The notes under the pieces are model-generated. The model saw nothing but the letters and a program-made list of their open reading frames with translations. It searched no databases and was not told the DNA's origin. DNA of 64,000 bases from Gracilibacillus salitolerans (lineage in GTDB: Bacteria; Bacillota; Bacilli; Bacillales; Amphibacillaceae), in the NCBI RefSeq assembly GCF_009650095.1, contig NZ_CP045915.1:4216001-4280000 (forward strand). The letters run 5' to 3'. Below are positions 46,374 to 61,616 of the stretch, piece by piece (the first letter of the stretch is position 1; every line of letters starts with the position of its first letter). Both the position numbers and the translations under genes were made by a program.

Positions 46374-48833
46374 TTATGAGAGTTTATTTAGTCTAAAGCT
46401 AGTTGTTCCAATATTTAAGCTCTGGCATAGCTGAATTGCCTTATCCGCAGAATCAATCTGATCGCCCCACTGGACAATATATCGGAACTCATAAAAGCCA
46501 CCTAGCGTACCTTTAAAATTTGTTTCCCAATAATTTGTTAGAGGCCAAGCATACAAGTGGTTAGCTTCATCCCCTGTTTGTTGTCCATGCACAAGTCTCT
46601 GACCATGTTCCAAAGGACCTAATTGGACTAGAGGTGTGTCCGGTGTAGCGATCAATAACCCAGTTTCTTCTGATATATAAGCCAAGCCTTCTTGAATGCT
46701 ATAGTAATCCGTTCCGGTTCCTGGTAATTGGTCTACAGCAGGTCGTATTAATGCCCCTGCTTTTTCTAGCCAAAGTTCTTCGGATGCTCTATTTCCGGTG
46801 CAAAAAGGCATAGATATATAAACATTTTCTGGATCCCATACACTATCCTTGTGTATTCGAACCGAAACATCTACTCTTGGTAGATCGTGATAAACCTTTA
46901 GAAATAATGAATAATGACTCATTCCTTCTATCTTGTAAAGAAGCTCAACAACGCAGTATAGCTCACCATTTGAAATCTCCTTTACACCTGTTAATGTTCC
47001 AATCGATCTTTGAACATCCATACCTTTACGATTTCTACCCATTTTCCTGCGCACTTCAGCCATTTGATCCTCTGCTCCAGCAGGTGTTACCTCATACACC
47101 GGAGTGAAAGCTGCGTGACCCTGCTCATCTCTAAGTAATTCGTTTCCTGTGTTCTTATCTATCCATGAATATATTCCTTTATCAGCTTGCCATTTAATAC
47201 GGGCAAATGGAGATTCGATACCAGTTTCCGTTACCTTTATTTTAGATGGAGTATCACCTAGATTCACGAGATTTTCCATATCATACACGCCATCGTTCCC
47301 CTTAAGACGTGTACTTTGAGTTGTAAGTCCTGCCTTATTACTTGTCTCGCGTAATGAGAATATCTTTTCCTCATCTTTCTGTAGTTTGACAACTATAGAA
47401 ATTTGATTCCCTTCACTTACTAAATCCATTTGGTGGGGAACTACTTCACCAGTTTGTTCGTCAATCACTTCAAATCCATTCTTGAATAAAGATGGTTCCC
47501 ATCCATCTAAATATATATGTGCAATATCTTCCACCACATGGTCAAATGGATTCACAACTTTATATCTGAATGGTCTTTCTGGAGAAAGTAGAGCTTCCCC
47601 TTTCGTGTGCTTCAAATGATCTAAAGCTGTAAATACCATACGGCTCGCATTTGCTGCATACGCAGCTTTTCTGACTTCCAATGACTGAACCATTGGGTGC
47701 CATGGTTCATAAACGGATGAATGATATCCCCATGTGTGTTCCGCATACATGGTTAATTGATGTTCTATATTCTCAATCGTTTCCTTTGAAACCGTGTCGT
47801 TGTTCTGATCGAGATTTTTGACCAGTCGCAAGTTCCTTTGAGCATCTCGGAAAATTTGTGTATTCATAGCAGTGGAAGCCACCCCATCAGACCACCAATC
47901 TGGCCAGTCCCCTTTGTAGACGGGTATTTCAAACTCTTGATTCTTGACATGATCAAAAAAAGTATTTAATGTCGTCATTTCGATTTCCACATTATTCCCG
48001 TATTCTGAATTCCAACGGTGTATAAAATCCATGATCTTTCCGTTTGGTGCAGCATTATCTCTTAGTAATCCCATTACATTAACAAGTGCAAAATCATAAG
48101 GATAATCCTCTTTTTCAAGCTGACAGAGATAGCGCATAATACGAGTTTCAGCCATTTCCCAATGATTTTCCATGTTAGGTGTAGTCTCAAATTCATCTCG
48201 AATGGAGTAGGACAAAACTGCTCCTGGAGAAATTCCTAGCTCGTTTCCTAGCATGTAATGCTCTCCATTCCAAACAAGCAATTTATCTCCCGTTGGAGTT
48301 TCCCAATAAAAAGGAAGCTGTTTTCTTCCAATCGCATACATCCCATGATGCGTATGAACACATGATAATAAATTTCGAATACCAGCATCATACATTGCTT
48401 GTGAATAACCCCAACTATAACCATTAATATCAGCGGTCATGGCAGAATTTAAAGGGACATCAGTCGCTTCAGCCAATCTTTTAGCTTTTAAAAATAATTT
48501 TTTCAATATGTCATAATCGATTAATTCTGTCATATTTAAGTAAGTTCCTGAAAGTTCTATATCCCCTTGTTGCAATGCTTCCATGAATTGTTCTTTGGTT
48601 TCTGGTGAAGCTTGCTCCAGAAATTTTTCTACTGCCCAAAACGTCTCGCATGTCCATTTAAACCCTTTCCATTCAGGTCGAGAACCATCGCGGGACTTAT
48701 TAATAATTTCAATTGCTTGCTTGATATAATCAACATGAAAAGATTCAATCTTTTCTTGCCTTTCCGTATAACCAATGTCTGTATGCGAGTGATGTATCAC
48801 AAATATTTTCCATTTTTTCTTTGGGATTTGCAT
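46374..48833 (-). CDS. GH38-family glycosidase (alpha-mannosidase-like)
   Basis: About 819 residues from ATG at 48833 (AGAGGAAG ribosome site). The GH38 N-terminal barrel opens with VIHHSHTDIGYT (metal-binding His and Asp) and carries the candidate nucleophile Asp in MTADINGYSWG; the C-terminal half is the beta-sandwich domain of retaining alpha-mannosidases. No signal peptide, so it acts on imported substrate. Encoded with a mannose-6-phosphate isomerase, it probably releases mannose from mannosides. It is the last gene of the operon. Confidence 0.88.
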   Translation of the reverse strand: MQIPKKKWKIFVIHHSHTDIGYTERQEKIESFHVDYIKQAIEIINKSRDGSRPEWKGFKWTCETFWAVEKFLEQASPETKEQFMEALQQGDIELSGTYLNMTELIDYDILKKLFLKAKRLAEATDVPLNSAMTADINGYSWGYSQAMYDAGIRNLLSCVHTHHGMYAIGRKQLPFYWETPTGDKLLVWNGEHYMLGNELGISPGAVLSYSIRDEFETTPNMENHWEMAETRIMRYLCQLEKEDYPYDFALVNVMGLLRDNAAPNGKIMDFIHRWNSEYGNNVEIEMTTLNTFFDHVKNQEFEIPVYKGDWPDWWSDGVASTAMNTQIFRDAQRNLRLVKNLDQNNDTVSKETIENIEHQLTMYAEHTWGYHSSVYEPWHPMVQSLEVRKAAYAANASRMVFTALDHLKHTKGEALLSPERPFRYKVVNPFDHVVEDIAHIYLDGWEPSLFKNGFEVIDEQTGEVVPHQMDLVSEGNQISIVVKLQKDEEKIFSLRETSNKAGLTTQSTRLKGNDGVYDMENLVNLGDTPSKIKVTETGIESPFARIKWQADKGIYSWIDKNTGNELLRDEQGHAAFTPVYEVTPAGAEDQMAEVRRKMGRNRKGMDVQRSIGTLTGVKEISNGELYCVVELLYKIEGMSHYSLFLKVYHDLPRVDVSVRIHKDSVWDPENVYISMPFCTGNRASEELWLEKAGALIRPAVDQLPGTGTDYYSIQEGLAYISEETGLLIATPDTPLVQLGPLEHGQRLVHGQQTGDEANHLYAWPLTNYWETNFKGTLGGFYEFRYIVQWGDQIDSADKAIQLCQSLNIGTTSFRLNKLS

Positions 48834-49009
48834 GATATTCTTCCTCTCTACCATAAGTTTTTGAAATTATTTTCATCATACACTGTAAAAATTGACATAC
48901 ATTCGAATACATTTAGAAACTATCATTCTATTTTTATGGCATATTTATTTCAGCGTTGTATTTGTTCCAATCGGTCTATTATCTCCATATATATCAAGGT
49001 ATGATAGAT

Positions 49010-49936
49010 TTAATTTATTAAATTATTAGCCCCTATGAATGTACTGATAAGTGGGGTATCTGAAACTTCTACATTCAATTCACTTGTATAAATAATATTT
49101 TCACTAAATGAAGATTCAAATTGTTTAAAGCTTTTTGAAATTTGCCCGCCAAATACTATTATTTCCGGTTTAAATGATTCTATAAATGGATTAACAGCTT
49201 CTGCTAGCCATATTCCAAAATCACTGAATACTTTTTTAGCATCGATATGGCCATCATTAGCTAGTTCTGCCAATTCTTTTACATTAGTATCGCTATAGAA
49301 ACCATGTTGCAATGCTAGATTAGAAATACCTTTTTTAGATATATAATCTTCAATTATGCCTTGTTTAAATGGAGCATTATAAATAAAACCACTATTAGGT
49401 ATGCCAAATTCGCCCTTAACCACTCTTCCCTCACATATAAAAGTGGAGCCAATTCCAGTACCTAAAGTAAAACAAGCTATTTTTTGGAAACCTTTATCTT
49501 TGTATTTAATAAATTCACCAACAGCAAACAGCGTAGCATCATTTCCCATATGGATGGAGAATTTTTTTGACAGATATTTTGTAATAAAGTGATTGTCCGA
49601 TATTGTATTAAACAACTCATTCTTAATATTTACTTTGTACAAAGAATCATACTTTTCTAATCCTTTGATATATGAAATACCTTCGTTATAATCAGCAGGA
49701 CCTGGAAAGGCTATTCCTACCCCTTTGATTTTTATAGTTTCATTCATTTGTAATTTCAATATTTGCTTCATTTGATCTTCCACGATATTTTTTAAGTGAT
49801 TGATAATTACATGTTTGTCCTTATTTGCCAAGGAATCGTAGGTGGTAATTGTCTTTGTGTGGATAACTCCATCTGACAATATTGCCGCATGAATAGTAGT
49901 CCCACCCACATCTATCGATATGACATAATCCAACAA
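49010..49936 (-). CDS. ROK-family sugar kinase-like protein
   Basis: A 308-residue ROK protein: phosphate-1 motif ISIDVGGTTIHAAIL, catalytic Asp region in HMGNDATLFAVGE, adenosine motif VFGGQIS. The zinc-binding CxCGxxGC motif usual in ROK glucokinases is absent; at that place the sequence reads IPNSGFIYNAPFKQG. It probably phosphorylates mannose or a related hexose (inference from context). No HTH domain, so not an NagC-type repressor. TTG start at 49936 after GGAGGTG. Confidence 0.83.
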   Translation of the reverse strand: MLDYVISIDVGGTTIHAAILSDGVIHTKTITTYDSLANKDKHVIINHLKNIVEDQMKQILKLQMNETIKIKGVGIAFPGPADYNEGISYIKGLEKYDSLYKVNIKNELFNTISDNHFITKYLSKKFSIHMGNDATLFAVGEFIKYKDKGFQKIACFTLGTGIGSTFICEGRVVKGEFGIPNSGFIYNAPFKQGIIEDYISKKGISNLALQHGFYSDTNVKELAELANDGHIDAKKVFSDFGIWLAEAVNPFIESFKPEIIVFGGQISKSFKQFESSFSENIIYTSELNVEVSDTPLISTFIGANNLIN

Positions 49937-49997
49937 AATTCACCTCCAACAAACGCTTTTCTGAAACTCGACAGTTATTTAGTTCATAATTAAATAG

Positions 49998-50732
49998 TCA
50001 GGTGAAATCAATATAGTAACGATATTCACTGCCAATATAATAACATTCTGTATACTCAATAAAGTCAGTGTTTTTTTGTGACGCTACTCGAACACGAATT
50101 AAAATCGGCTCATTTTCGTCAACATTTAAATTTTCAATCACCTCTTGAGTTGGTCGTGCTGCTTCAATATATTCTGTGATTTCATTTACAATAATGCCTT
50201 TTGATTTAAGAACTTCATAAAAAGACTGATAATAATCATCTGCATTTAACGAATAAACATCGTCATAAGGGATATAGGTTTTGAAATAAACAAACCCTCT
50301 ATTATTCACCCCTCTAACGCGATTTAGTTCCATGACTCGATCACCTTCAGCTACTTTTAATTTAGAAGCCAGAAAGTTGTTTGCTGAAATAAGCTTTACT
50401 TCTGCTTTTAAAGTTACTGCACGCTTCCCCATTTCAGCCATTTCTTTTGTAAAACTTCTTACATAAGTGAAATGCTCCTGGTTTTTCGACCCAGAGGGAT
50501 CTAGTACAAAAGTTCCTTTTGCTCTTTCACGTTGAAGTAAATTTTCAAAAACTAGTTGATCTATAGCTTTTCGTATAGTAATACGACTAACATTGTATAT
50601 ATCGCAAAGATCTACTTCTGCTGGTATTTTGTCACCAGTTTTCCACATACCGAGTTCAATTTTATGTCGAATTTCTTCTGCAATTTGCGCATACAGTGGA
50701 GATGCTTCTTTGCCCTTATTTAATTTCACCAT
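49998..50732 (-). CDS. GntR-family (HutC/UTRA type) transcriptional regulator
   Basis: A 244-residue regulator: winged HTH at ~10-75 (CDIYNVSRITIRKAIDQLV) and a UTRA effector-binding domain at ~95-240. It lies between the mannose-6-phosphate isomerase and ROK genes and likely represses the operon until a phosphorylated sugar binds. Confidence 0.92.
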   Translation of the reverse strand: MVKLNKGKEASPLYAQIAEEIRHKIELGMWKTGDKIPAEVDLCDIYNVSRITIRKAIDQLVFENLLQRERAKGTFVLDPSGSKNQEHFTYVRSFTKEMAEMGKRAVTLKAEVKLISANNFLASKLKVAEGDRVMELNRVRGVNNRGFVYFKTYIPYDDVYSLNADDYYQSFYEVLKSKGIIVNEITEYIEAARPTQEVIENLNVDENEPILIRVRVASQKNTDFIEYTECYYIGSEYRYYIDFT

Positions 50733-50782
50733 TCAATGACTCCTTTCCAATTTTGATGTTAGTGAAACAATCACATTCAGTA

Positions 50783-52552
50783 CTAGTGTCTCACATATGC
50801 TTTAATTGTTGTAATTTGTTTTCCCTCACTTTTTCCATAAGGTCTAATTGTATAGGGACCTACAGCAGCTGGAATAATAAATGATTCTGCATAATGGACA
50901 ACATAAGGTTCAAAAGCATTGCTAGGACTTTCTACTATAGCTTCTTCTCCTTCAACCAAATTAAGTACGTTAACACCACCATTTGTGTTATGGTGGACAA
51001 CTTTAGTAGAACAATGCCTTCTTGTTTCAATAAACTCCCGTTCATGAAGGCCGGTTTTCTCTTCCATCCAACCATCTCCTGAACTGATTGATTCTACCGT
51101 ATTGATTAAATTCTTATCTACCCACTCTTTTGTCCGATCCCATTGAAGCGCTTTTTTTCCATTTTCAATGTGGACAGGTCTTGGTTTACCATCAAGATCC
51201 ACTCGCCCCCAGTCCCACAATTTAAATGTAAAAATATAAACAGAAGAGCTAATTTCTAATACCATACAATTTTTCCCTGAACAATGAATCGTGCCGGCTG
51301 GTATTGAAAAGTGATCGTGTTTTTGGGCAGGGTACTTATTAATGTACTTTTCATCTGGAAATGAAATTTCTCCATTATTAGCACGTTGCAAATCGTTTAA
51401 TAATTCATTACTATCTACATTCTCTTTAAAGCCAAGATAAACGACCGCATCGTCTTTAGCATCCAATAAATAATAACTTTCATCTTGAGTATAATGCATG
51501 CCAAATTGTTCTTGTATTTGCTCTGTTGGAGGGTGGACTTGCAAACTCAAATTTTGCCCATCCATGGTATCTAAGAAATCAAATCTAATAGGAAACTCTA
51601 AGCCAAATCGAGCATGCACTCTATTTCCAAGTAACTCAACAGGTTTGTAATAAACTAAGTTCATAGATGGCATTTCAACCCGAATATTTCCATAATCTAG
51701 GTATAAACTATTTTCTTCTGGAACACAATCAAAAGCCCATGCATAATTCACTTCATTACGATCTAAATCACACACTTCCTTCATCCATTGTCCTCCCCAA
51801 ACTCCCGGTTTGAAATAGGGAACGACCCGGAATGGACGTGCAACCGCTTGTTGCAAACCATTTAATAGAGCTTCTTTCGTAACCATTTTAGGATGGTTTT
51901 CCAAATTCGTATCCATTAAATAGTCAATATTAGTAAGAAGCTCCTTCTTTAAACGATCTGCTATGCGCCATTCAAAGAAATATCCCCGTTTATACTTTAA
52001 CAATGGATCTGCATTTCTATTATTAGCTTTCCAGTTTCCCATTTCTTTACTTTCATAACGTTTTTGGATTTCCCATCTCGCTAAATCTGCATATAATAAC
52101 AAATCATACTCAGAAATCAAACTAGCTCCTACGCCATAAATCAGGACGTTCCCAACTTCTAATTCTTCGATTTGATTTTGAATGAGACGAATTTTATTAC
52201 TATCAAAAAAATCAGCTAAACTATAAGGGGTCATTACACCAAAAACTCTGTCATCCGTAAGTTGTCTTTCAATAATTTTAGTTACTTTTTCAGCGTCATA
52301 AGAGGCATTGTCAGCGTTTATAATAAGATCGAAATTCAAATGATTAGTAAATTCCTGCAAAACTTCCTGTTCTCTTACCCCCGGATAACATTCTATCGTA
52401 ATAATTCTCTTTTCTTTATTAATATTAGCAATAGCTTTATCTATTTCATTTGCGATATTTTCGTATCCTTCCCAGACCTGTTCATCATAACCTTTAATTT
52501 TAACACTTGGGTGTTTTTCATAGTTTGCCTTTCGCTCTACAGAAGTTTTCAT
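50783..52552 (-). CDS. Class I mannose-6-phosphate isomerase with N-terminal kinase-like domain
   Basis: A 589-residue protein, nearly twice the usual length (~315) of Firmicutes ManA. Residues ~45-205 look like a nucleoside-kinase/uridine-kinase-type domain with a degenerate P-loop (IECYPGVREQ in place of GxxxxGKS/T). From ~235 a type I PMI cupin domain follows: PYFKPGVWGGQW, Zn ligands in LQVHPP, a Glu, and His in AGTIHCSG. It converts mannose-6-P to fructose-6-P. First gene of the mannoside operon, ATG with GAAAGGA. Confidence 0.87.
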   Translation of the reverse strand: MKTSVERKANYEKHPSVKIKGYDEQVWEGYENIANEIDKAIANINKEKRIITIECYPGVREQEVLQEFTNHLNFDLIINADNASYDAEKVTKIIERQLTDDRVFGVMTPYSLADFFDSNKIRLIQNQIEELEVGNVLIYGVGASLISEYDLLLYADLARWEIQKRYESKEMGNWKANNRNADPLLKYKRGYFFEWRIADRLKKELLTNIDYLMDTNLENHPKMVTKEALLNGLQQAVARPFRVVPYFKPGVWGGQWMKEVCDLDRNEVNYAWAFDCVPEENSLYLDYGNIRVEMPSMNLVYYKPVELLGNRVHARFGLEFPIRFDFLDTMDGQNLSLQVHPPTEQIQEQFGMHYTQDESYYLLDAKDDAVVYLGFKENVDSNELLNDLQRANNGEISFPDEKYINKYPAQKHDHFSIPAGTIHCSGKNCMVLEISSSVYIFTFKLWDWGRVDLDGKPRPVHIENGKKALQWDRTKEWVDKNLINTVESISSGDGWMEEKTGLHEREFIETRRHCSTKVVHHNTNGGVNVLNLVEGEEAIVESPSNAFEPYVVHYAESFIIPAAVGPYTIRPYGKSEGKQITTIKAYVRH

Positions 52553-55464: not shown

Positions 55465-56631
55465 TTAATCTCTACTAAACAAATCCCTAGTATAAACCTT
55501 ATCCGCTACATCTTTAATATCATCCGTCAATCGATTAGCGACAATAACATCTGAGATTTCCTTGAATTCTTCAAAACCATTTACTACTCTTGAACCATAA
55601 AACTCTTCTTCATCCAATACCGGTTCATAAACAACGATGTCCACGCCTTTTGCTTTGATTCGTTTCATAACGCCCTGAATGGCGGATTGTCTGAAGTTAT
55701 CAGAGTCTGTTTTCATCGTTAAACGGTAGATACCGACAACAGACGGATTCTTCGCAAGGATACTGTCCGCAACATGATCCTTACGTGTACGGTTCGCATC
55801 GACAATTGCTCCGATAATATTATTCGGTACATCCTGATAGTTCGCAAGTAATTGCTTCGTATCCTTAGGTAAGCAATAGCCGCCATAACCAAAGGAAGGA
55901 TTATTATAGTGACCGCCAATACGCGGGTCCAATCCTACTCCTTCAATGATTTGTTTCGCATTTAATCCACGAACTTCTGCATAGGTATCCAATTCATTGA
56001 AAAAGGAAACACGCATAGCAAGATAGGTATTCGCAAATAACTTGATCGCTTCTGCTTCAGTGGAGTCTGTATAAAGAATCTCAATATCCTCTTTAATCGC
56101 ACCTTCTGCTAAAAGATTAGCAAATGTACTAGCACGCTCTGATCTTTCTCCTACGACAATTCGTGACGGATACAAGTTATCATATAGTGCTTGTCCTTCA
56201 CGTAGAAACTCTGGTGAGAAAATAATATTATCAGTATTATACTTTTCTCGCAATTCTAATGTGTAACCAACTGGAATCGTTGACTTAATTACCATAATTG
56301 CATTTGGATTAATGTCCAGAACGGTCTCAATCACATTCTCAACCGTACTCGTATCAAAATAATTACGATCCGGATCATAGTTCGTTGGTGTAGATATAAT
56401 CACATATTCCGCATTCTCATATGCTTTATGTACATCCGTTGTAGCCACCAAATTCAAATCTTTCGTTTCCAAATATGTTTGAATCTCTTCATCGACAATT
56501 GGTGACTTTTTGTTGTTAATCAAATCGATTTTCTCTTCCATAATGTCGAGCGCAATCACTTCATTATGTTGTGCTAATAACACGGCATTTGATAACCCGA
56601 CATAGCCTGTCCCCGCTACTGTTATTTTCAT
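55465..56631 (-). CDS. ugd: UDP-glucose 6-dehydrogenase
   Basis: A 388-residue enzyme, the length of E. coli Ugd, oxidising UDP-glucose to UDP-glucuronate with two NAD+. Rossmann motif [37 protein letters not shown], Lys in [21 protein letters not shown], and the catalytic Cys in [13 protein letters not shown]. It is the last gene of a four-gene operon, 15 nt after the nucleotidyltransferase. Its product feeds the UDP-glucuronate 4-epimerase of the same operon. Confidence 0.95.
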
Positions 56632-56646
56632 CTTTTCTATTCACCT

Positions 56647-57375
56647 CTAAAATAATTCTTGTACTTTATTATAACTGTCAATCGTACCAATATCATATCG
56701 CAAGCCTTCGAATGTAAAAGCATATACTTGCTTGTGCTGAATCAGCCATGGGATAAAATTCCCCGGTGCATCAGGATTATTTCCTTCTGCTAAGTATTGT
56801 TTAAATAAAGGTAATGTTTCTGCCTTATATAGATAAAAAGGTGGTACAGCTAAATTCGATTTCGGTTCCTGTGGTTTCTCTTCAAAGGATGTGACCACTC
56901 CATCTTCATTCACTTCAACAATACCAGTTCGTTTCATTTCTTCAGGGTCATCTAATTCATGCGTCGTAATACTATCTGCATTCACTTCTTGATAAAAATG
57001 AACAAAATCAACCAATTCAAAATCAAAGAGATTATCACCAGCTAAGACCATAATATCTTCGTCAATCTTATGGTGATCCAATACATACTGGATATCAGCA
57101 ATGGCACCTAATCGATCGTCATTCGTTGTTGTGCGGTCATTGACAACAACTATTTTCTTATGACATTGATAATTTGCAGCCCAGTCTTGAAAGCTCGGAG
57201 TGAATTTCTCATTGGTAACAATATATACTTCGTCTACTTGCTCGACTTTTTCGACCTTTTCAATAATATGATTCAGGATCGGTTTCCCTGCTACTTCCAA
57301 TAAAGGTTTCGCTTTATTCTTGGTTAAGGGATATAATCTTGTCGCATAGCCAGCAGCTAGGATAATACATTTCAT
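56647..57375 (-). CDS. Sugar-1-phosphate nucleotidyltransferase (RmlA-like)
   Basis: A 242-residue enzyme with the signature LAAGYATRLYPLTKNKAKPLLEVAGKP (split: nucleotide-binding G-x-x-TRL and the following Lys), metal Asp in VLAGDNLFDF, and GIVEVNEDGVVTSFEEKP. Joins a sugar-1-phosphate to a nucleotide. Encoded right after the GHMP sugar kinase, it probably uses that kinase's sugar-1-phosphate product, proposed here to be galacturonate-1-phosphate giving UDP-galacturonate (inference). Confidence 0.85.
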   Translation of the reverse strand: MKCIILAAGYATRLYPLTKNKAKPLLEVAGKPILNHIIEKVEKVEQVDEVYIVTNEKFTPSFQDWAANYQCHKKIVVVNDRTTTNDDRLGAIADIQYVLDHHKIDEDIMVLAGDNLFDFELVDFVHFYQEVNADSITTHELDDPEEMKRTGIVEVNEDGVVTSFEEKPQEPKSNLAVPPFYLYKAETLPLFKQYLAEGNNPDAPGNFIPWLIQHKQVYAFTFEGLRYDIGTIDSYNKVQELF

Positions 57376-57427
57376 CTTCTTCCCTCCAAAAAATGATAAG
57401 GACAGACCTTTATAGGACTGTCCATTT

Positions 57428-58636
57428 TTATTTTAGAACAATTCCCCTGTCCTCTTGATCCACGAGACGGGCTCCATTGTTGGTTTTACAGAAGTGGACT
57501 TTGTATACGTCTTTGTATGCTGGGTGTTGGGACGGATAAATAGCGTCAATGTTTGCTTTGATTTGTTCTTTATATGCTGGATCAATTAACCCAATACAAC
57601 AGCCTCTGTAACCTGCCCCGCTAAAACGGGCCCCATAGACACCTTCTGTTTCTTTCAACACTTCATAAATCGTGATCAACTCCGGACAGCCTGATTCATA
57701 TTGATGAATCGAGCTCTCGCCTGATTCGAACATCAATTTGCCAAACTGTTCGATATCCCCTTGTTCCCATGCTTCAATTCCTTGACGTACACGATCCTGT
57801 TCAGTAAAAAAGTGATCCAGTCGCTTACGGAATTTGCCTGGTACTTGGTCACGATACTTATGATAATGTTCTTCTGACATATTCCTTAGTTTCACATCCT
57901 GCAAGGCGGTCCGCTCAAGACCAGCCAATTCTTCTACAATCCAGCCTGCAACTTTACATTCGTCAACTCGATTATTATAATCTGTGCCGATCAACGCTTT
58001 ACTTACACCCGAATAAACGACAACCACTTCAAACTCAGGCATACCAACTGACTTGTTTACTAAATAATGCTCACTTGTCTGGCAGTCCATCACCAGTAAT
58101 CGATTATCTTCACTTAAAATATTGGCAGATTGATCAAGGATTCCGTTCTTTAAACCGATAAATTCGGTTTCAACCCAGTGACTATAAGAAACTAGTTCTT
58201 CCTTGGAGATATCTAAATTGTTCACTTCTGCTAAGGCCATCAAGTAAGCGGTTGTTACAGCTGCCGATGAGCTTAATCCACCAATAGGTAATTTTCCACT
58301 AATCACTGCTTGAAAACCATATTGTAATTTCTGATCCTGTTGTAAGGAAAGAACAGCACCGCGAATATAGTTACCCCAGAAACCAGGTAACACCTCAGGT
58401 ACACTGTCAATATGAAAATACTCTTCATCTGGAAAATCCATACTACTGATACGAATATAACCGTCTTCTGAAGGTGCGAAAACCATCTCCACATTAGCAT
58501 CCAATGCCATACCTGTGACAATGCCGCCTTGATGGTCAACATGTGCACCTAAAGGACATATTCTAAGAGGAGAACGGACCATTTCGGCCTCTTTCTCCCC
58601 ATATAAGTGTTTGAATGTATCAAAAAGTTCCTGCAT
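57428..58636 (-). CDS. GHMP sugar-1-kinase, galacturonokinase-like
   Basis: A 402-residue GHMP kinase. Motif 1 reads SPLRICPLGAHVDHQGG, whereas galactokinases have PGRVNLIGEHxDY; the RICPLGAHxDHQGG form is characteristic of plant galacturonokinase as I recall it. Motif 2 is GGLSSSAAV, and motif 3 is GARFSGAGYRGCC, also galacturonokinase-like. The catalytic Asp is in NGILDQSANIL. Would phosphorylate a sugar acid (galacturonate or glucuronate) at C1 with ATP. Flanked by a nucleotidyltransferase and a UDP-glucuronate 4-epimerase. An automatic label would likely be galactokinase, which I think is wrong. Confidence 0.8.
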   Translation of the reverse strand: MQELFDTFKHLYGEKEAEMVRSPLRICPLGAHVDHQGGIVTGMALDANVEMVFAPSEDGYIRISSMDFPDEEYFHIDSVPEVLPGFWGNYIRGAVLSLQQDQKLQYGFQAVISGKLPIGGLSSSAAVTTAYLMALAEVNNLDISKEELVSYSHWVETEFIGLKNGILDQSANILSEDNRLLVMDCQTSEHYLVNKSVGMPEFEVVVVYSGVSKALIGTDYNNRVDECKVAGWIVEELAGLERTALQDVKLRNMSEEHYHKYRDQVPGKFRKRLDHFFTEQDRVRQGIEAWEQGDIEQFGKLMFESGESSIHQYESGCPELITIYEVLKETEGVYGARFSGAGYRGCCIGLIDPAYKEQIKANIDAIYPSQHPAYKDVYKVHFCKTNNGARLVDQEDRGIVLK

Positions 58637-58652
58637 GATTAGACAACCCCAT

Positions 58653-59711
58653 TTATGAGTTCGTTACTTGCTCTTCTTTCGTTCCCTCACTCAACTTATA
58701 ATACTGGACATACCAATCAGCAAATTGTTGCAAACCTTCTTCAATCGAAGTTTCTGGCTTGAATCCTACTGCCTGATGTAAGCGGTCAGTAGATGCATAT
58801 GTTCTTGGTACATCACCTGGTTTAATTGGTTCAAATTCTTTCTTGAATTCTACCTCACGTCCCAAAGCATTGCTTAATGCTTTTTCTAAAGATTGGATAA
58901 AATGCATTAATTTCTCCGGGCTATTATTACCGATGTTGAATATTTCATGTTGTACTTCGCCTTCTGGTGTACGTGGAATTAACTTCTCTATTCCCTCTAC
59001 AATGTCATCAATGTACGTGAAGTCACGGTATAAGTCATTTTCGAAATCACCATTGTTAAAGATTTTAATGGCTTCACCAGCAAAATATTTATCGGTAAAA
59101 CCATAATACGCCATATCAGGTCTGCCCATTGGACCATAAACGGTAAAGAAACGTAAGCCTGTTGCTGGAATCTTATAGAGATGACTATATGTATGTGCCA
59201 TTAATTCATTAGATCTCTTTGTTGATGCGTACAATGATACAGGATGATCAACAAAGTCTGTCTCTTCAAATGGTACTTTCTTGTTTGCACCATAGACAGA
59301 ACTGGACGAAGCATAAATCAAGTGATCAACTGGATAATGACGACATGCTTCTAATATATTATAGAACCCAGTTACATTACTTTGCATATATACGTCTGGA
59401 TTCTCGATAGAATAGCGAACCCCTGCTTGGGCTGCAAGATTAACTACGACACTAGGCCGATAATGAGCAAATAGATCTTCAATTGCTGCTTTGTCCGAAA
59501 TATCTGCTTTCACAAATGTAAAGTTTTCATAAGGTTCTAAACCTTCCAAACGAGTATATTTTAAGTTCACATCATAATAGGCATTTAGATTATCAATACC
59601 TATAACTGTACAGCCTTGATCTAATAGTTTTTTAGAAAGGTAGTATCCAATAAAACCAGCTGCACCTGTGACAAGGTATGTTTGGTCCGTTCGAAAAGTC
59701 TGTGTACTCAA
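58653..59711 (-). CDS. UDP-glucuronate 4-epimerase-like (CapI/LspL type)
   Basis: About 352 residues from TTG at 59711 (AAAGGAG, 9-nt spacing). An extended SDR with TGAAGFIGYYLSKKL, DNLNAYYDVNLKYTRL (typical of UDP-glucuronate epimerases), NLAAQAGVRYSIENP, SSSSVYG and YASTK catalytic residues, and FFTVYGPMGRPDMAYY. It interconverts UDP-glucuronate and UDP-galacturonate. First gene of the operon; its substrate is made by the ugd gene at the other end. Confidence 0.88.
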   Translation of the reverse strand: MSTQTFRTDQTYLVTGAAGFIGYYLSKKLLDQGCTVIGIDNLNAYYDVNLKYTRLEGLEPYENFTFVKADISDKAAIEDLFAHYRPSVVVNLAAQAGVRYSIENPDVYMQSNVTGFYNILEACRHYPVDHLIYASSSSVYGANKKVPFEETDFVDHPVSLYASTKRSNELMAHTYSHLYKIPATGLRFFTVYGPMGRPDMAYYGFTDKYFAGEAIKIFNNGDFENDLYRDFTYIDDIVEGIEKLIPRTPEGEVQHEIFNIGNNSPEKLMHFIQSLEKALSNALGREVEFKKEFEPIKPGDVPRTYASTDRLHQAVGFKPETSIEEGLQQFADWYVQYYKLSEGTKEEQVTNS

Positions 59712-59852
59712 TTTGCTTAACTCCTTTATTAACAAGAATTATGACTTTATTATAACAAGAAAAATTATAACATACTTTTGTCTGTACTTCCTATCAAATA
59801 TTGTAAATTTTTAGCGGGATTTCATCCGACTTTCTATGCTGATAATACACTT

Positions 59853-60005: not shown

Positions 60006-60500
60006 TTAGATATATTCCTTCTCCATCATCACCTTCTGAACCTTCTTCCTAGCTAACTTCCCCCAGTTCTTCACTGCATTTTCCGTTACCCCTTCTTCTT
60101 CCGCAATGGTTCTAACAGATAGATCTTTCAACACAAATTTATCAAACCAACACCACTGTTTATCAGTCAACTCTTTTTGAATATCTAATAATAATGGTGT
60201 ATCTACTTTCAATTCATCCACCACTAGCAAATCTTCTATTGTCACTTGATTGAACCAATCCTGAAATTGATCGCGCTCACGATTTTCTTTACGAATCTTA
60301 TTAATGAACCTTCTTGTAATACCATAATAAGCATAGGTAGAAAACTTTGATTTTGATGGATCATAGTTTTGATAAGCATTCCATACAGCAATTAACCCTT
60401 CTTGATAAAATTCCCCTTCCACGTCTCGAATTTGATATTTGTGCATGATGTGATAAATCATTTTTTCAGAATCCTTTAGAATATCTTCAAATCTCATCAC
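60006..60500 (-). CDS. Sigma-70 family RNA polymerase sigma factor (small, competence/SigH-like)
   Basis: A 164-residue sigma factor. Region 2 is at ~25-75 (EFYQEGLIAVWNAYQNYDPSKS, then FSTYAYYGITRRF) and region 4 at ~105-160 (LSVRTIAEEEGVTENAVKNWGKLARKK). Short two-domain form like Staphylococcus SigH or Streptococcus ComX. It starts with GTG at 60500 (or ATG three bases later) after AGGAG. Divergent from the XRE-comK pair, which suggests a role in competence (inference). Confidence 0.85.
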   Translation of the reverse strand: MMRFEDILKDSEKMIYHIMHKYQIRDVEGEFYQEGLIAVWNAYQNYDPSKSKFSTYAYYGITRRFINKIRKENRERDQFQDWFNQVTIEDLLVVDELKVDTPLLLDIQKELTDKQWCWFDKFVLKDLSVRTIAEEEGVTENAVKNWGKLARKKVQKVMMEKEYI

Positions 60501-60883
60501 TAGGTGAACTCCTATATGACAAGCACTTGCCTTACGTATTCCGCGGTAAAGTGATCATATAAAAGTTTCTAATATATGTCATATCGTGATATTTATACGT
60601 CAATCTATGAAAATAGCCAAGGTTAGCGTTATTTGGCGGATTTTCATCTGAAAAAATTTGATTATTGCATAAATCTATCAAAATTTACAGCTATTTATAC
60701 ATTTCTATTATTTCAATAACTTCCCAAGCAAGATGTGCACTACCTAAAAAATGCCTCTCCCTTCTCATGTGAGAAATACAGACTTACTTTTCCTATTAGA
60801 TCCCCCTAATACGTGATACTGCACGTGTTACTGGTAATTTATTTCTATGATAATAGACGTAAAGGATGATGAGGGGTAGAGCA
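60501..60883. promoter_or_regulatory. Divergent intergenic region with a CACGT palindrome
   Basis: It holds the promoters of the sigma factor and the XRE-comK pair. TACGTG (60810-60815) pairs with CACGT (60822-60826); it lies 58 nt before the XRE start and could be its operator. I could not fix -35/-10 boxes with confidence. Confidence 0.35.
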
Positions 60884-61177
60884 GTGGCGCAACAAGATCA
60901 TATTGATGGTGTACTCTTAGGGTATTGTATTAGACAGTTCCGGGAAAATTTAAAAGCAAAAGATCCGAAATGGACCCAGGAATACGTAGGGAGAAAAGCA
61001 GAAATTGACGAAAGACACTATGGCAAAATCGAACGCGGCAAATACCCTCAGACCTCATTCATTACCATTGGAAAAATTGCAAAAGCACTAAATTGCTCTT
61101 TGGATAACCTTTTTGAAAACTATGAGAAAGAACTTATAGCATATAAAAGAAGAACTGGTGAAGTGGATGAAGAATAA
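60884..61177 (+). CDS. XRE-family transcriptional regulator
   Basis: About 97 residues from GTG at 60884 (GAGGGG at 7-nt spacing). HTH_3 domain ~10-70: IRQFRENLKAKDPKWTQEYVG, KAEIDERHYGKIERGKYPQ, ALNCSLDNLFENY. It overlaps the start of comK and is probably co-transcribed with it, so it is a candidate controller of competence. Confidence 0.85.
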   Translation: MAQQDHIDGVLLGYCIRQFRENLKAKDPKWTQEYVGRKAEIDERHYGKIERGKYPQTSFITIGKIAKALNCSLDNLFENYEKELIAYKRRTGEVDEE

Positions 61178-61616
61178 TTATCGAATTACCTCAGACACAA
61201 TGGCCATCTTTCCCATGTATGATACTCTTTATCAATCTTCCATACTTGAATATGATGAAGCCATCACTAAAAAAGAAAAACCATTAGACATTATTAAAGA
61301 AAACTGCATACACTACGGATCTAGTTATCAGGGTCGCAAAGCATCTGTTCAACACCATTTAGATTTCCACCAAAAGTCTCCCATTCCTATTCAACCAACC
61401 AAAAAGCTATATACTTTTCCCACACAATCCGCTAGATCTATTGATTGTATCTGGCTGTTTTATCATGCTATCAAACACCTAGAAAACAAACAGCAACATA
61501 CAGCTATTACTTTTACTAACGGTGAAGTAGTAAATGTTGCTCCGTCACTTTACACGATCCAACAACAATATCATCGAACTGGGATGATTAAAGTGTTAAT
61601 GGAGCAGTTGATGTAG
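61167..61616 (+). CDS. comK: Competence transcription factor ComK homologue
   Basis: A protein of ~149 residues from ATG at 61167, overlapping the end of the XRE gene by 11 nt. Conserved ComK features: IIKENCIHYGSSYQGRKAS (like CRFFGSSYAGRKAG in B. subtilis ComK), KSPIPIQPTKKLYTFPTQS, and ITFTNGEVVNVAPSLYTIQQQYHRT. It is shorter than B. subtilis ComK (192 aa), lacking the C-terminal ~35 residues, as in several non-Bacillus Bacillaceae. ComK activates DNA-uptake genes by binding AAAAN5TTTT boxes. Confidence 0.88.
   Translation: MKNNYRITSDTMAIFPMYDTLYQSSILEYDEAITKKEKPLDIIKENCIHYGSSYQGRKASVQHHLDFHQKSPIPIQPTKKLYTFPTQSARSIDCIWLFYHAIKHLENKQQHTAITFTNGEVVNVAPSLYTIQQQYHRTGMIKVLMEQLM

Follow-up and report, generated by a model that had tools for sequence, protein, structure and literature searches.

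In the 64,000-nucleotide stretch of the Gracilibacillus salitolerans genome analysed here (the window; positions 4,216,001 to 4,280,000 of the forward strand of contig NZ_CP045915.1, assembly GCF_009650095.1), four adjacent genes form an operon that probably provides a surface polysaccharide with UDP-galacturonate (UDP-GalA) by a de novo and a salvage route, a reading to which we assign, from the sequence, a probability of about 0.62. The genes encode an epimerase-like protein (EPI), a GHMP kinase (KIN), a nucleotidyltransferase (NT), and a UDP-glucose dehydrogenase (UGD). In the de novo route, UGD would oxidize UDP-glucose to UDP-glucuronate (UDP-GlcA), and EPI would epimerize UDP-GlcA to UDP-GalA. 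In the salvage route, KIN would phosphorylate free D-galacturonate at the anomeric oxygen, generating galacturonate-1-phosphate (GalA-1-phosphate), and NT would join this compound with UTP, its presumed nucleotide, to yield UDP-GalA. Salvage could refill UDP-GlcA too, because epimerases like EPI are reversible. The original prediction, made from the letters of the window, had placed both routes in one operon; the gene set does share an operon, and the salvage genes are putative.

The genes are transcribed in the order EPI, KIN, NT, UGD, and their open reading frames (ORFs) lie on the same strand with intergenic gaps of 16, 52, and 15 bases, confirming the close spacing that had been claimed. 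The ORF list and Pfam also show that the coordinates and family assignments first proposed were right (Table 1), the Pfam families of all four proteins being those named at that time. Since the ORFs are full-length, the matches are strong, and the gene order is conserved in other genomes, a chance product is excluded. Spacing and strand are what suggest co-transcription, because the scans for promoter-like sites (27 vs. 24.7 in shuffled sequences, standard deviation 6.2) and terminator-like sites (1 vs. 3.7) gave no excess over the shuffles. The mechanical ORF of EPI (58653-59735) starts at a TTG codon, but the second TTG, at 59711, is the likelier start because a better ribosome-binding site, AAAGGAG, precedes it. 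No NCBIfam equivalog model was exceeded by EPI, KIN, NT, or UGD (among the best 25 of 42 families for NT and the best 25 of 37 for EPI), and the sole NCBIfam model above its cut-off was the subfamily TIGR03026, for UGD. The source genome is a single contig of 5.09 Mb.

Table 1. Genes of the proposed UDP-GalA operon (positions in the window).
Gene	Product	Position	Strand	Basis
EPI	SDR-family protein, UDP-glucuronate 4-epimerase-like	58653..59711	minus	Pfam Epimerase; structure matches 5u4q, 6zl6
KIN	GHMP kinase, plant galacturonokinase type	57428..58636	minus	Tree, pocket residues, identity, AlphaFold model
NT	Short sugar-1-phosphate nucleotidyltransferase, proposed uronate-1-phosphate uridylyltransferase	56647..57375	minus	PF00483; locus conservation; fusions; model
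UGD	UDP-glucose 6-dehydrogenase, short (388-residue) type	55465..56631	minus	3phl match; TIGR03026

KIN shares 37% identity over 401 columns with the Arabidopsis-type galacturonokinase. Its identity is 35-39% to 12 plant sequences vs. 26-31% to 10 canonical galactokinases (GalK), and reaches 85-90% to the kinases of three named Gracilibacillus species. The two motifs by which the kinase had been assigned to the plant galacturonokinase form, RICPLGAHVDHQGG and GARFSGAGYRGCC, are both present in KIN, letter-exact. Each of the five galactokinase models listed from NCBIfam scores KIN under its cut-off (e.g., 205.2 vs. 226.65 for TIGR00131 and 217.5 vs. 385 for PRK05322). A phylogeny against GalK and plant galacturonokinases, one of the checks proposed at the outset, was built from 43 rows, i.e., 21/120 bacterial (KIN and 20 others), 9/120 plant, and 13 GalK-type sequences. 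KIN sides there with the other bacterial and the plant sequences, which are split from all 13 GalK-type rows with a support of 100/100, the tool flagging the GalK side for its long branches. Within the bacterial-plant side the branching order is little resolved. The bacterial rows need two changes on this tree, and the plant sequences branch with one bacterial row (85/72). The bacterial homologues were the best 120 of 6580 matches and the plant set the best 120 of 5555, the latter retrieved with an Arabidopsis-type query; many of the 120 plant matches listed carry the name galacturonokinase. The AlphaFold model of KIN (51-row alignment) has a mean pLDDT (predicted local distance difference test) of 91.9 and adopts the galactokinase fold over nearly the whole chain. 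Altogether, these data support the assignment of KIN to the plant galacturonokinase type, distinct from galactokinase.

The residues of the predicted sugar pocket, compared between the 120 bacterial and 120 plant sequences and 25 GalK-type rows (21 canonical and 4 divergent), point in the same direction. The bacterial-plant group is marked by C27, P28, A31, H35, Q36, N164, G210, G306, S309, and R344, each found in 116-120 of 120 sequences. Position 31, before the conserved His, is Ala in 119/120 bacterial (one gap) and 120/120 plant sequences vs. Glu in 21/21 canonical GalK. This Glu contacts the C6 hydroxyl of the sugar in galactokinase. At position 344, all bacterial and plant sequences (120/120 each) have Arg and all 25 GalK-type rows have Gly; R344 is a candidate carboxylate holder. 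Residues A41, Y250, and A368 of the plant record P0121 are indeed A, Y, and A, and align with A31, Y220, and A341 of KIN. In the plant galacturonokinase, according to what Yang is said to have reported in 2009, A41E abolishes activity, Y250F admits glucuronate, and A368S lowers activity. KIN is likely to be specific for galacturonate. The Tyr220 position is Tyr in 94, Phe in 21, and without a pattern match in 5 of the 120 bacterial homologues; Phe is carried by P0048, P0058-P0061, and 16 others, and the plants and the window KIN have Tyr. We take the Phe at this position to be the natural counterpart of the glucuronate-accepting plant mutant.

The kinase gene is interrupted in Alkalibacterium MB6 and on a Lactococcus garvieae plasmid, G. 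oryzae carries a remnant of it, and an additional kinase fragment occurs in Evansella (L013 6311-7681; L077 8001-9162; L053 8981-9393; L006 14581-14973). The interruptions may be sequencing errors.

NT is a 242-residue protein of the PF00483 family that scores far below the NCBIfam cut-offs for GalU (71.4 vs. 326.8), RmlA (70.8 vs. 360.65), and AglF (100.9 vs. 400); its model (pLDDT 92.1) is closest in fold to UDP-glucose pyrophosphorylase and RmlA. The pairing of KIN and NT was followed in 23 loci from 22 genomes or records (one genome twice; matches below 60 bits omitted), two of which, a contig end (G426) and a kinase remnant (G408), are unable to show an intact pair. In the remaining loci, 21/21, NT lies downstream of KIN on the same strand, at 62 bases or less in 19 of them and at 568 and 2618 bases in the other two. 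These loci span Bacillaceae, Lactobacillales, another Bacillota family, and spirochaetes. An EPI-like gene (at least 48% identity) stands near KIN in 8/21 loci and a short-type UGD (at least 61%) likewise in 8/21, some of the stretches being short; hence KIN-NT is the constant unit of these loci. Where KIN is present, NT probably uses GalA-1-phosphate. One of the pairs, in a spirochaete (G569, L083 9017-10945), is divergent (40-41%) and flanked on both sides by genes alike by eye, encoding proteins of about 900 and 410 residues, one of which matches CDP-glycerol glycerophosphotransferase.

A set of 85 longer proteins containing the NT domain shows which partners it has been fused to. KIN precedes NT in 11 of them, and in 4 others the preceding partner is a different GHMP kinase with the motif GLLGNPSD, whose GNPSD part we take to be the glucuronokinase motif. 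An EPI-like partner (51-62% identity to EPI) is found in 16/85, a more distant SDR in 4/85, and UGD in 3/85 (61-65% for the UGD half). In P0255, P0256, and others, the NT domain is joined to unrelated domains, e.g., a response regulator, so assembly or reading-frame effects may account for some of the joins seen in the metagenome set.

The proposal that the operon supplies a capsule or cell-wall polymer holds as far as homologous loci are concerned, since these are found in surface-polysaccharide clusters; the end polymer of G. salitolerans itself we infer from them. In another Gracilibacillus genome (G399), EPI-KIN-NT-UGD in the same order end an exopolysaccharide cluster, in which a sugar transferase, glycosyltransferases, an EpsG-family gene, and a flippase-family gene precede the operon. 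The order EPI-KIN-NT-UGD is repeated within a capsule-type cluster on the L. garvieae plasmid, the one examined further among the best 30 of 53 plasmid records matched. The gene table of this plasmid, which is incomplete, lists KIN as two hypothetical proteins and has no gene for NT. The cited section on the capsule cluster of L. garvieae Lg2 prints a UDP-glucose 6-dehydrogenase and no galactokinase (PMC3150408). KIN-NT also has Wzz, sugar-transferase, or flippase-family genes in its vicinity in Alkalibacterium, G444, Evansella, and a spirochaete; Pfam gave no match for two further neighbours tested. At E 1e-60 the kinase is found in 3/398 Bacillota genomes surveyed, G. salitolerans included, and, counting the genome from which that survey started, in 2/247 from the spirochaete phylum.

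For the de novo route, UGD matches 3phl, a UDP-glucose 6-dehydrogenase, with 630.7 bits over residues 1-388 (E 6.7e-189); it exceeds the cut-off of TIGR03026 and reaches 656.6 bits with PRK15057, under the cut-off of 757. EPI contains the SDR motifs GAAGFIG and YASTK. Its second match among solved structures, 6zl6 (154 bits, Epimerase domain-containing protein), is presumably BcUGAepi, the UDP-GlcA 4-epimerase of Bacillus cereus, with which the residue numbering fits. Thr126, Ser127, and Ser128 of 6zl6 align with the Ser, Ser, and Ser of YASSSSVYG in EPI, so that, by alignment, EPI is predicted to have both the hydroxyl residues and the SDR motifs of a UDP-GlcA 4-epimerase. In BcUGAepi, the cited section describes these three residues as holding the carboxylate (PMC7984243).

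Several observations weigh against the proposed two-route function of the operon, some of them against a fixed salvage role in particular. NT (at least 55% identity) is present in 15/17 Gracilibacillus genomes vs. KIN in 7/17; one NT copy is interrupted (G398), and the two genomes without NT are 83% and 73% complete. EPI-NT-UGD occur without KIN in G403 and G406, the EPI and NT frames being 21 and 13 bases apart, and other NT copies of the genus stand with UGD or with none of KIN, EPI, and UGD. The occurrence of NT in genomes without KIN, including these EPI-NT-UGD sets, argues that NT has work independent of KIN. On the NT tree (39 rows; four of the 21 KIN-NT loci omitted, 13/34 fusions used), the KIN label needs seven changes. 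A probe for GNPSD-type kinases, run without a positive control, found none in 17/17 Gracilibacillus genomes, and for want of that control it says little about a hidden glucuronokinase serving NT where KIN is absent. Of the 85 proteins with an NT domain, 47 have a partner of another kind, a second copy of NT, or nothing that was recognised, and all 11 KIN::NT fusions end their KIN match at residue 318, without the third motif. Because of this truncation, these fusions (P0242-P0251, P0253), which have a nearly identical junction, may be decayed kinases. The best solved-structure match of EPI, 5u4q (367 bits), is deposited as a dTDP-glucose 4,6-dehydratase. As for KIN, R344 is replaced by Lys or Asn in two divergent homologues, and the Ala at position 31 is shared by 2/25 GalK-type rows, both divergent spirochaete kinases. 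The top NCBIfam match of NT, though far under its cut-off, is the glucose-1-phosphate uridylyltransferase AglF. The simplest alternative role of NT is the uridylylation of glucose-1-phosphate for UGD, and since NT is commoner than KIN in the genus, it may use this substrate or be broad; a broad-specificity NT would fit all observations. NT would then be a UTP:glucose-1-phosphate uridylyltransferase, or a broad enzyme, feeding UGD and EPI in a core of EPI-NT-UGD, with KIN as an optional gene, its product being taken up by a different enzyme or by NT, in the latter case only as a side activity. The loci without KIN, the wider distribution of NT, the three NT::UGD fusions, the AglF match, and the UDP-glucose pyrophosphorylases among the closest folds all agree with this explanation. 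It fits poorly with the presence of NT downstream of KIN in every locus able to show the pair, 13 of which have no short-type UGD of at least 61% identity (some stretches being short), with the proximity to NT, in G399 and G409, of another nucleotidyltransferase that by eye resembles GalU, and with the four fusions of NT to a GNPSD-type kinase, and we regard it as unlikely.

The sugar of the kinase is the other point on which readings differ. KIN might act on glucuronate, L-arabinose, galactose, or a uronate outside this list, NT making the matching UDP-sugar. The specificity of KIN is indeed predicted, the Phe found at the Tyr220 position in 21/120 bacterial homologues is the change that reportedly admits glucuronate in the plant enzyme, and two divergent homologues (38-40% identity) have Lys or Asn in place of R344. 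Nevertheless, the window KIN retains Tyr220 and the pocket residues of its group, and a GalK-type gene exists besides KIN in the G. salitolerans genome, as in 17/17 Gracilibacillus genomes, rendering another sugar quite improbable. That KIN is an ordinary galactokinase in an ordinary galactose or capsule cluster is hardly credible. The Pfam domain GalKase_gal_bdg exceeds its cut-off in KIN, the fold is that of galactokinases, and databases frequently use this name; against this stand the NCBIfam scores, the Ala replacing the canonical Glu, the 100/100 split of the GalK-type rows, and the additional GalK-type gene. A plain galactokinase identity was thus rejected, in agreement with the original prediction.

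Returning to the uronate reading, the proposed salvage step can be compared with known systems, for which the statements below draw on parts of the cited papers. In plants, galacturonate is salvaged in two steps, by galacturonokinase (GalAK) and then UDP-sugar pyrophosphorylase (USP) (PMC8636097). The logic proposed for KIN-NT is the same, and KIN shares with the Arabidopsis GalAK (At3g10700), which works with USP (Sloppy), the identity and the common pocket residues described above. The differences are that NT is a protein of RmlA/GalU fold and not a USP, a family with few prokaryotic members (PMC6329318), that the Gracilibacillus genes stand in an operon with the de novo route, and that KIN is without about 16 residues of a plant insert. 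The zebrafish protein DrGKUP is a glucuronokinase fused to a short bacterial-type pyrophosphorylase and made a little UDP-GlcA (PMC3938481). It resembles the proposed pair in that such a pyrophosphorylase works with a GHMP uronate kinase, and differs in being one fused protein instead of two genes and in its glucuronokinase-type kinase, which used only glucuronate of nine sugars tested (PMC3938481). Its pyrophosphorylase showed very little activity, and none in most assays, a further point on the negative side, and the tree of this domain includes Gracilibacillus lacisalsi and Aerococcus viridans (PMC3938481). The Gracilibacillus entry may be NT. As a partner of the DrGKUP type, NT is found downstream of KIN and fused to GNPSD-type kinases, and it also occurs without any such kinase. 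BcUGAepi makes UDP-GalA by a de novo route of the same kind (PMC7984243). A de novo UDP-GalA route was reportedly described by Broach in 2012. The Haloferax AglF/AglM pair resembles the operon in that AglF is the best NCBIfam match of NT and UGD also matches AglM, and differs in that both scores are far under the curated cut-offs. No kinase is known to belong to this pair.

A wider and more tentative proposal, to which we give somewhat less than even odds, is that NT represents a uronate-1-phosphate uridylyltransferase family apart from plant USP and GalU. This family would have been partnered independently with two kinds of uronate kinase. In bacteria, one would be the plant-galacturonokinase type, encoded by a separate gene or, rarely, fused to NT; the other, of glucuronokinase type, would be fused to it in other bacteria and in animals. 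On this view, bacterial KIN-NT would serve as a portable module for salvage in operons for capsule and exopolysaccharide, and the Tyr/Phe difference would act as a natural switch between galacturonate and glucuronate. In G410, an NT copy (L096 98-9643) stands directly after genes resembling, by eye, myo-inositol catabolism genes; in animals, the glucuronate salvage pathway is fed by inositol.

In plants this salvage is well known, and a bacterial KIN-NT salvage would be a new bacterial variant of it. The remark that such a pathway is little described is fair so far as the open-licence literature searched shows: judged on titles and abstract starts, no tested bacterial galacturonokinase was found there, though some bacterial relatives are already named galacturonokinase in databases. 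If the reading is true, bacteria would have a route that turns scavenged galacturonate directly into an activated sugar rather than burning it, and bacterial enzymes would be on offer for the synthesis of GalA-1-phosphate and UDP-GalA, for which the galacturonate kinase of one group proved unstable and too weak, as stated in part of its report (PMC7984243). The plant galacturonokinase gains close bacterial relatives, and with them a place to test uronate specificity in the GHMP fold.

Concerning the source of galacturonate, UxaC, an enzyme of general uronate catabolism, is present in 16/17 Gracilibacillus genomes. In G. salitolerans, UxaE adjoins UxaC, and genes for both proteins, a KduI-family protein, PfkB, and GH88 lie within one region. 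The presence of UxaC and UxaE shows that this genome is predicted to be able to handle free galacturonate. The suggestion that the sugar derives from pectin found no support: GH88 is above its Pfam cut-off in 3/7 KIN-bearing vs. 7/10 KIN-less Gracilibacillus genomes, i.e., it does not track KIN in the genus. A specific pectin link was therefore rejected, and pectin is one possible source only.

Elsewhere in the window, a glycoside-use cluster (46374-52552) contains a GH38 glycosidase, ROK-family, and GntR/UTRA genes, beside a 589-residue protein without a Pfam match. According to Pfam, the neighbours of the operon are MscL, luciferase-like oxidoreductase, sigma-like, HTH, and ComK-family genes, with no glycosyltransferase among them in the window. 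The sigma-70-like gene, the HTH gene, and the ComK-family gene lie upstream of the operon (60006-61616). Among the 31 loci scanned, a ComK-like gene was found in 6 (G404, G407, G399, G410 with two copies, G408, and Evansella) and a sigma-like gene in 4 (G404, G407, G411, and G398). A link of these sigma-like, HTH, and ComK-family genes to the regulation of the polysaccharide locus is possible.

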